Of a stretch of 64,000 bases of DNA, positions 7,290 through 9,339 are shown in pieces. Every line of letters begins with the position of its first letter. The first letter of the stretch is position 1. The position numbers and the translations under genes were made by a program. The stretch is from Desulfurococcaceae archaeon MEX13E-LK6-19 (lineage in GTDB: Archaea; Thermoproteota; Thermoprotei_A; Sulfolobales; Desulfurococcaceae), in contig CP072660.1 in the NCBI GenBank assembly GCA_029637525.1, positions 62,001-126,000 of the forward strand. The letters run 5' to 3'. The notes beneath the pieces are model-generated. The model searched no databases, was not told the DNA's origin, and saw only the letters and a list, made by a program, of their open reading frames with translations.

Positions 7290-9116
7290 TTAATGTTTTA
7301 CTATAGCTACTCCTCTTGGTTCTATTACATAGTTTTCTTCATTCTTTCTTCCATGCACCAATATTGGTTCGGTACCTGATGCCTCCACTACTACTTCTTC
7401 ATAGCTATGATTTATCATGTAAATGATTCTGCTATCACCGCTTGTTGCCTCGATCACTTCTAGTCTTGGGTCGTATGGTGTTCTTGGTTTAAGCTTGTTC
7501 TCCAGGATTTTCCTGTAGATTCTATATGGTTTGTATCTAGTGTTGGCATCGATCGCCTCTATGAGGTAGTATTCTATGGGTTCTGTCACGAGTATTGCTT
7601 CGCCTTTACCTCTTTTTGCACGTAGAATCAATGGGTTGTTATTACATGGTACAATTACTTCTGCGTCAACAGGTTTTACTTTAATACCTAGATGTATCGT
7701 GTATTGGGGTGCCGTTTTTAGTCCGGGTATGACTATTTCTTCTCCTAGAATCTCTGTTTTTATGTCGTTCGTCATTGGCGTAATGTACCCTGGTGTTTGG
7801 GCTGGTATTACCCCGAAGAGTTCTTCCCAGAGATGAGTTGGAGCATGATGTGGTTCTTTTACTGATATTGCTACACTATAGTATAGTGTTAAACCGTTTT
7901 CCACTAGCCTAAGCAGTTTTCTCCATGTTGTGGCCTTGAGTATTGGTATTGAAGGTACTATCAGTGCTTTCAATCTGGTTTTATCGAATGTATCCTCGTT
8001 TACTATTATAGGATTGTATCCAGCCATTTTCAGCATAGTAAATGATTGATATAATACCTTGATTATAGTTCCTAGATCCACTTTCTCTATAATTTTGTTC
8101 ACGAACTCTACATCTTTATACATGTACTGAGGTATCAGTATCCCTACCGGGTCTTCAATAGGCTTGTAGTTTGATAGCATGTATTTTTCTTCAAGACTAC
8201 TTATCTCCTTTATAAGTAGGGCCGATGGTTTTTGTTCTCTATTTGCCTTAACAATACCGAATCCCAGCTCGTAGGGATGATTTATATAGGGCTCCCACTC
8301 TTCTTTATCAAAATCACTAAAACACCAAATCATGAATCCTTGTGCACCATTTGCTAGTATGCTATATAGTATTGGGCGTAGGAACAAGAACTGACCTTCA
8401 TCACCGTACTGGTAACTCGAGAAACCTAGTTCCTCGTATATCACTGGCTTCCGTGTTGACAAACAGTGTTTTAGCTTGAAAATATATGCGTAACCCTGTC
8501 TCATGACATCGTTATCGTAGTTGTACATATGGGGAGCCAAGTAATCAAGAATCTCGGCCTCTGTCTCTGGTTCAGCGCCAACGTGATATGGATAATATAG
8601 ACCACTACCACTTGTAACCCTATGTTTGGGATCAACTTTCTTCAGTGCACTATAGATTCTTCTCAAAAACTCTCTATATTCTTCTCGTGAAGAAGGTTTC
8701 TCGTAAATAGTAATCTCGTTCCCTATAACATAAGCTTCGAGAGCAGGGTGATCTTTTACTCTGGACGCTATCTCCTGGAAGAATTTCTCCAGACAATCAA
8801 TTGCTTCACGAGAATACATGTATCCGTTAACCACCCTGAAGTTCATACCAGACATATGCCCTACAATAAGCGTCAAGTAAACCTTTAAACCATACTTATA
8901 GCATCTATCAAGAAAATCAAGCAACCGCTCCAGAGCATGTTCTTTAACACCACACTCACTATCCATAAAAACCCTCGTCAACAAGAACACGCGAACACTA
9001 TTAACACCAAGTTCACGCATAACCCTCAAGTCATCATCAATCTCTTCACCACGATACTTTTCCCAAAAATAGATCGGGCAATAACTAGGCCAATAATTCA
9101 ACCCCACAACAAACAC
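7290..9116 (-). CDS. Clan GH-A glycoside hydrolase with C-terminal GH42-like domain
   Basis: A (beta/alpha)8 glycosidase. The acid/base Glu is in YVIGNEITIYE, the nucleophile Glu probably in KPVIYEELGFSS, and barrel features include LGVNSVRVFLL and a late GFMIWCFSDFDKEEW segment. After about residue 360 (GILIPQYMY onward) comes a Rossmann-like region resembling the GH42 trimerisation domain, then a small beta-rich end. The frame stays open to 9203, but a TATA box at 9156-9166 places transcription near 9135, so GTG 9116 is the best start. The product then begins VFVVGLNYWP, has no signal peptide and is cytosolic. Family (GH5 or GH42-like) and substrate are unresolved. Confidence 0.82.
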   Translation of the reverse strand: MFVVGLNYWPSYCPIYFWEKYRGEEIDDDLRVMRELGVNSVRVFLLTRVFMDSECGVKEHALERLLDFLDRCYKYGLKVYLTLIVGHMSGMNFRVVNGYMYSREAIDCLEKFFQEIASRVKDHPALEAYVIGNEITIYEKPSSREEYREFLRRIYSALKKVDPKHRVTSGSGLYYPYHVGAEPETEAEILDYLAPHMYNYDNDVMRQGYAYIFKLKHCLSTRKPVIYEELGFSSYQYGDEGQFLFLRPILYSILANGAQGFMIWCFSDFDKEEWEPYINHPYELGFGIVKANREQKPSALLIKEISSLEEKYMLSNYKPIEDPVGILIPQYMYKDVEFVNKIIEKVDLGTIIKVLYQSFTMLKMAGYNPIIVNEDTFDKTRLKALIVPSIPILKATTWRKLLRLVENGLTLYYSVAISVKEPHHAPTHLWEELFGVIPAQTPGYITPMTNDIKTEILGEEIVIPGLKTAPQYTIHLGIKVKPVDAEVIVPCNNNPLILRAKRGKGEAILVTEPIEYYLIEAIDANTRYKPYRIYRKILENKLKPRTPYDPRLEVIEATSGDSRIIYMINHSYEEVVVEASGTEPILVHGRKNEENYVIEPRGVAIVKH

Positions 9117-9155
9117 ACTACACCACCCACAACAAAAAACAACTACCATCGAAAA

Positions 9156-9166
9156 GCTATATAAAC
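9156..9166 (-). promoter_or_regulatory. TATA box of the glycoside hydrolase gene
   Basis: Reading leftward, GTTTATATAGC is a strong archaeal TATA box. Transcription would begin about 25 bases downstream, near 9135, which rules out the longer reading frame and supports a GTG start around 9116 with a short leader. Confidence 0.6.
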
Positions 9167-9192
9167 CCCAAGAAAATATACAACAAAAAATC

Positions 9193-9339
9193 TGGCGGGG
9201 CAAAACAGCGGGGTAGGGCAGCCAGGTAGCCCGCGGGGCTCATAACCCCGAGGTCGGTGGTTCAAATCCACAAGCCGTAGCCGTATGGCGCGGCTGGGGA
9301 GCCCCCGCTACCACCGCCCGCGAGGGCGCCCCGCCACCA
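9193..9339 (+). other. Outer acceptor-like helix enclosing the tRNA-Met gene
   Basis: TGGCGGGGC (9193-9201) is exactly complementary to GCCCCGCCA (9328-9336), and this is followed by CCA (9337-9339). The core is a 7-pair GGCGGGG/CCCCGCC helix plus discriminator-like A and CCA, copying the layout of the inner acceptor stem. Between the inner CCA and the outer strand lies a GC hairpin with tetraloop GCGA (CGCCC/GGGCG, 9315-9328). It could be a precursor-processing stem or the trace of an acceptor-stem duplication. Confidence 0.6.
9207..9310 (+). tRNA. Initiator tRNA-Met (CAT) with 30-base insert in the T arm
   Basis: Acceptor AGCGGGG (9207-9213) pairs with CCCCGCT (9303-9309), discriminator A 9310, encoded CCA 9311-9313. 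D arm GGGCAGCCAGGTAGCCC; anticodon arm CGGGG-CTCATAA-CCCCG with CAT at 9241-9243 and the initiator-type GC pairs under the loop. T arm is GGTGG-TTCAAAT-CCAC and then breaks off: 30 bases (9272-9301) separate position 64 from the final C of the stem and the acceptor strand. Removing exactly 9272-9301 restores a canonical archaeal initiator tRNA. The insert folds as AGCCG...CGGCT. A perfect bulge-helix-bulge splice motif is not obvious by eye. Confidence 0.9.

Follow-up and report, generated by a model that had tools for sequence, protein, structure and literature searches.

A Covarying Leader-Trailer Helix Surrounds the Initiator tRNA Gene in Desulfurococcales and Sulfolobaceae and Pairs in trans in Many Split Genes

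The window analyzed here, a stretch of 64,000 nucleotides (nt) from the genome of Desulfurococcaceae archaeon MEX13E-LK6-19 (contig CP072660.1, positions 62,001 to 126,000), carries on its plus strand an initiator tRNA-Met gene (9207 to 9313) that is surrounded by a second, perfect helix of 9 bp. The 5' strand of this outer helix (TGGCGGGGC, 9193 to 9201) pairs with a 3' strand (GCCCCGCCA, 9328 to 9336), and a CCA overhang (9337 to 9339) follows immediately. The tRNA acceptor stem inside it is formed by AGCGGGG, starting at 9207, and CCCCGCT, ending at 9309, followed by ACCA (9310 to 9313); CC then precedes a trailer hairpin, GCCC-GCGA-GGGC (9316 to 9327), which adjoins the outer helix, belongs to the minimum free energy (MFE) structure and has counterparts of different sequence at this place in relatives. 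On the 5' side, an A-rich, unpaired spacer, AAAAC (9202 to 9206), leads from the outer helix to the acceptor stem, and the RNase P site is expected where it meets that stem. A TATA-like box (CTATATAAA, 9157 to 9165) lies upstream, and transcription is predicted to start about 26 nt downstream of it, where the outer helix begins. On the minus strand, a long open reading frame (7290 to 9203) has its listed TTG start within the outer-helix leader; the real start is probably farther downstream. Both nested helices and the GCGA-loop hairpin had been proposed in an earlier sequence-only reading of this stretch, and direct reading confirmed all of their pairs and coordinates; that account was incomplete in that it missed the intron described next and did not foresee a trans version of the helix in split genes.

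The gene was identified as initiator tRNA-Met by its CAU anticodon, A1-U72, the GGG/CCC anticodon stem and the cloverleaf into which the spliced form folds; a separate CAU tRNA of elongator-type sequence, labeled tRNA-Met by ARAGORN, is found elsewhere in the genome (G000:C1:362773-362846). The T arm of the initiator is broken between nt 64 and 65 by 30 nt (9272 to 9301), which separate a 5' exon (nt 1 to 64; 9207 to 9271) from a 12-nt 3' exon consisting of nt 65 to 72, the discriminator A and an encoded CCA (9302 to 9313). ARAGORN overlooked this intron, and its gene call, 9208 to 9279, was wrong at both ends, the end at 9279 arising because the 30 nt interrupt the T arm. Read by eye, the intron has bulges AC^A and AG^C, a central helix of about 3 pairs and an inner helix, AGCCG/CGGCT. 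With the 30 nt removed in silico, the cloverleaf, enclosed by the outer helix and accompanied by the trailer hairpin, was the exact MFE structure. Two loci of one related genome (L012 and L033) carry an intron of similar sequence at the same site. These features identify 9272 to 9301, as a prediction, as a relaxed archaeal tRNA intron of the bulge-helix-bulge type. Apart from this intron the window gene is contiguous, and its exon order is normal; it is thus neither a split nor a permuted tRNA gene, splitting being confined to relatives.

The leader-trailer helix at the window locus scored 26, a value reached by none of 2,000 shuffles (maximum, 23.5), and the MFE structure of the 158-nt stretch included the outer helix (z = -2.4). 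Among 39 further tRNAs of the genome, none reached the initiator score (best, 21). In G058, a relative whose helix differs in sequence, the initiator likewise scored highest among 30 tRNAs, and the 30 non-initiator tRNAs of S. marinus gave ordinary scores (median, 13). Outside the class, none of 30 initiator loci, a sample drawn with a pattern demanding an uninterrupted anticodon loop, had a similar helix (best score, 16). In cis or in trans, the initiator is thus the one tRNA among those tested that has the helix, and the possibility of a general tRNA feature in these genomes was ruled out by the other-tRNA controls.

Matches from a search of 61 related genomes showed that the leader is conserved as strongly as the tRNA itself, and about 160 initiator loci were read. 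Within the order as defined in GTDB (Desulfurococcales plus Sulfolobaceae), the 5' leader is complementary to the 3' trailer, and alignment to relatives, which the sequence-only reading had proposed as a check, revealed compensatory changes at 7 of the 9 pairs. This supports its suggestion of an unusual processing precursor. It had also held that the idea would fail if relatives lacked the outer pairing; most of the order has it, and some genera do lack it. Among 41 distinct helices, 46 cells were double changed, compared to 14.6 (standard deviation [SD], 3.8) after shuffling, and one pair occurred as four pair types. Sliding the partner strand by 1 to 3 columns reduced the double-changed cells to 0 to 10. 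The counts are conservative, since one mistyped row (TAGGCGGGAT...), which counts against the helix, was kept. Moreover, with the leader position fixed at -14 to -6 from nt 1 and only the trailer strand picked by fit, cognate leader/trailer pairs had a mean score of 18.05, versus 15.63 for permuted pairs given the same fitting freedom (SD, 0.25; maximum, 16.48 of 5,000). The two outermost pairs were nearly always G-C (41/41 and 40/41).

The helix recurs in many families, and its sequence varies among them: GGCGGGGC/GCCCCGCC, GGTGGGGC/GCCCCACC, TGGGGCCGT/ACGGCCCCA, TGGGGGGT/ACCCCCCA, TGGAGGGT/ACCCTCCA, TGGGAGGC/GCCTCCCA, GGCGGAG/CTCCGCC and CGGCGGGT/ACCCGCCG. Helices of Sulfolobaceae include GGTAGGG/CCCTACC, GGCGGGAT/ATCCCGCC and AGCGGGGAA/TTCCCCGCT, and in Acidilobus-type genomes (L094 to L097) the pairing has moved farther upstream and acquired a new sequence (GGGCAAAGGG/CCCTTTGCCC and GGCAAGGGG/CCCCTTGCC). 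Comparison of these sequences indicates that selection maintains the pairing rather than the letters. A chance inverted repeat was ruled out by the shuffles, the tRNA controls and the covariation, and it is nearly certain that the outer helix is a selected structure.

The flanks have a recurrent anatomy. In 150 homologous loci, an AT peak or TATA-like signal was centered about 42 nt upstream of nt 1, which places the predicted start of transcription near -16 and so at the helix edge. The A-rich, unpaired spacer between helix and nt 1 was always 5 to 6 nt long in relatives; the 3' spacer ranged from 0 to 46 nt and was frequently hairpin forming, with 22 of the 32 3' spacers of at least 14 nt exceeding 95% of shuffles in a hairpin test. 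CCA stood right after the helix in 55 of 78 intact helix-bearing loci. At two loci (L281 in G219 and L282 in G218), the trailer holds, besides the clamp strand, GCTTCCCTAC, which is perfectly complementary to tRNA nt 7 to 16 (GTAGGGAAGC). Two genomes have two initiator copies each, both with the outer helix (L025 and L032 in G053; L007 and L031 in G050); the copies in G053 are identical to the end of the trailer and divergent beyond.

In many relatives the initiator gene is split at about 29/30, 37/38 or 59/60, in some cases into three pieces; the junctions carry complementary arms rich in G+C, and TATA-like signals precede the later pieces. For 27 loci at which both outer pieces were found, the leader of the first piece pairs in trans with the trailer of the last, including pieces on opposite strands (L042/L341) or on different contigs (L123/L336 and L132/L337). 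Covariation extends to the trans pairs, as in GGGGCCGC/GCGGCCCC at L155/L342 versus GGGGCCGT/ACGGCCCC in intact relatives. In the tri-split genes L034/L338 and L159/L344, the third piece contains about 14 nt of the tRNA together with the trailer strand. Three pieces could be read in G003 and G153, with the outer helix closing the set between pieces 3 and 1; in G003 the arms are perfect, both between pieces 1 and 2 (GGGGCTACCGTCCC/GGGACGGTAGCCCC) and between pieces 2 and 3 (CGGGGCGGCTGTCCGC/GCGGACAGCCGCCCCG). Genes that look tri-split, with separately promoted pieces and arms, were noted at L034/L338 (G003), L035/L339 (G016), L159/L344 (G153), L172/L347 (G172) and L173/L348 (G174), and T-loop splits (59/60), whose last piece is about 14 tRNA nt plus trailer, at L155/L342, L156/L343 and L039/L340.

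Two genera (g27 and g13) lack a trailer strand on the last piece; there, the end of the first piece pairs with its own leader. In g27 the closing strand is followed by CCA (TGGGGGGAC...GTCCCCCCA-CCA). Scores for such cis closure were 20 to 25 in first pieces of g27 and g13, compared to 10 to 17 elsewhere (L052, 16), and a compensatory change from G-C to A-T separates the cis-closing helices of L048 and L049. Some first pieces end in complements of the tRNA's own 5' part similar to those at L281 and L282 (L088, CCCTACCCC; L026, GCCCTACC).

We propose that the outer helix is a clamp between leader and trailer of the initiator tRNA precursor, holding its ends together until splicing is done, and give this function, which is deduced from the arrangement of the sequences, a probability of roughly 60%. 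A leader starting, by the position of the promoter, about at the helix edge would pair with the 3' trailer strand and keep the ends of the precursor joined, in cis or in trans; the tRNA splicing endonuclease and ligase would join exons or pieces while the clamp holds, after which RNase P and 3' processing would strip leader and trailer. At the window locus, the clamp would hold the 12-nt 3' exon during excision of the 30-nt intron at 64/65.

Several observations weigh against this proposal. The transcript ends and the order of processing are predictions from sequence, the promoter position being indirect support for the presence of both strands in one primary transcript. Intron-less genes of Thermogladius, Pyrolobus and Ignicoccus types retain the clamp, and therefore splicing cannot be its sole reason. 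Some genera have the leader strand without a partner (L011, L013 to L015, L024 and L293 to L302), others have neither strand (L022 and L104 to L108), and one split gene, L088, has no clamp. Nor was an outer helix present at the published split genes for tRNA-Lys (S. marinus) and tRNA-Asp (A. pernix and T. aggregans), located at their published coordinates in G022, G084 and G017; these cases rule out a general feature of split tRNAs. Finally, folding models gave the clamp no net gain in acceptor-stem formation compared to neither strand. In nearest-neighbor partition functions, each strand alone lowered the probability of the acceptor stem, and both together canceled the effect. That a lone strand disturbs the acceptor stem and both do not would explain the coevolution of the strands, not their existence, and a role for the clamp as a folding helper is unsupported by these calculations. 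A remedy for a weak A1-U72 pair also found no support, since two other tRNAs of the genome (AGCCGGG..CCCGGCT), one of them labeled Gln by ARAGORN, have A1-U72 and no clamp.

It is rather unlikely that exon holding is a by-product and that the helix, with its CCA overhang, serves, at high temperature, to protect a long-lived precursor against exonucleases. Such end protection would fit the coincidence of the predicted transcription start with the helix edge, the commonness of the CCA overhang and the self-closure of first pieces in two genera, one with a CCA end, for which exon holding has no need. It leaves unexplained, however, why the helix is restricted to the initiator among the tRNAs tested, and many split genes place the partner strand on another piece, leaving single pieces open until they meet. 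We also regard it as unlikely that the helix is a gate on maturation, slowing RNase P (and 3' processing), with the effect that 5' cleavage has to wait for 3' trimming and the rate of initiator supply is set. Although a leader paired with the 3' RCCA acts as an anti-determinant when the enzyme is bacterial RNase P (PMC9433436) and the constant spacer of 5 to 6 nt at the cleavage site suggests that distance to RNase P matters, the host here is archaeal, N(-1) to N(-5) are unpaired in the spacer, so that the site should stay accessible, and the trans versions would go unexplained. For the competing 3' end that the sequence-only reading proposed, in CCA use or in the choice by RNase P/Z, no support emerged.

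That reading had also raised an acceptor duplication, and a tandem-duplication relic is a version of this idea that we judge improbable: the flanks would be decayed copies of the acceptor strands, paired still because a lone strand would mispair with the tRNA. The commonest variant, GGCGGGG/CCCCGCC-RCCA, does resemble the acceptor end AGCGGGG/CCCCGCT-ACCA, in Acidilobus-type genomes the first 13 nt of the tRNA recur in the leader, and the loss of acceptor-stem probability with either strand alone and its restoration with both are as expected. Other lineages, however, keep the helix with sequences unrelated to the acceptor (GGGGCCG, GGGAGGC and GGTAGGG), and therefore duplication, even if it was the origin, is not what is maintained. 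The Acidilobus-type relocation, the trans pairing and the cis closure demonstrate renewed selection for pairing, and the whole element could have been dropped, as in L022 and L104 to L108. Least credible is an element acting at the level of DNA or transcription, in which the G-rich leader would owe its conservation to a role in the promoter or as the first stretch transcribed, and the trailer would be a chance match or a terminator; we hold this to be highly improbable. The leader strand does occur without a partner in several genera, some of them outside the order (L198, L204, L210, L230, L237 and L272), and has the sequence GGCGGGG at L013 to L015, L024, L198, L204, L230, L237, L272 and L293 to L302, but both strands have been replaced compensatorily and the partner has been relocated to another gene piece, and the covariation strongly disfavors this explanation.

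Beyond the proposed clamp function, we tentatively raise the possibility of a dedicated device for initiator assembly: an acceptor-like outer helix with its own CCA, which would hold the precursor ends together and, in trans, close three-piece initiator tRNAs as their third helix, may have made repeated splitting of this essential gene tolerable and may define a maturation pathway of its own. Initiator tRNA is an essential RNA, and a covarying element that spans the order and, of the tRNAs tested, occurs on this precursor only implies an undescribed maturation step. The element also bears on the splitting of tRNA genes, because it is present in many unsplit lineages and pairs in trans in split ones, sometimes joining three pieces.

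A description of this helix was not found in the literature searched, subscription papers lying outside the search. Archaeal 16S and 23S pre-rRNAs have processing stems, leader-trailer helices with a bulge-helix-bulge cut by the splicing endonuclease. The likeness is that leader and trailer pair on either side of a structured RNA due for later excision; the bulge-helix-bulge itself is absent from the initiator helix, which has a 5' bulge of 5 to 6 nt, a 3' spacer of 0 to 46 nt and no 3-nt/4-bp/3-nt arrangement, and this misfit in geometry excludes it from the class of rRNA-type stems. It is not a second nested tRNA either, since the outer acceptor comes without D, anticodon and T arms. In eukaryotic La-bound pre-tRNAs (PMC9705548) and acceptor-extended bacterial pre-tRNAs (PMC9433436), the leader pairs with the trailer or 3' end and affects processing; such pairings are short and variable, and in the literature consulted neither order-wide covariation on one tRNA nor trans pairing between gene pieces is reported. 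The initiator genes of the window's relatives resemble the split and tri-split archaeal tRNA genes of N. equitans, C. maquilingensis, A. pernix, S. marinus and T. aggregans, whose pieces are joined at a bulge-helix-bulge by G+C-rich arms (PMC3218864, PMC4033280). Unlike those junction arms, the initiator helix joins the outer ends and exists in unsplit genes as well. The two published lists consulted give a split initiator tRNA in N. equitans only and tri-split tRNAs in C. maquilingensis only (PMC3218864, PMC4033280). The permuted tRNA-iMet of Thermofilum pendens (PMC3218864) is likewise a crenarchaeal initiator with a disrupted gene; unlike it, the window gene has its exons in normal order, and its outer helix closes the true 5' and 3' flanks.
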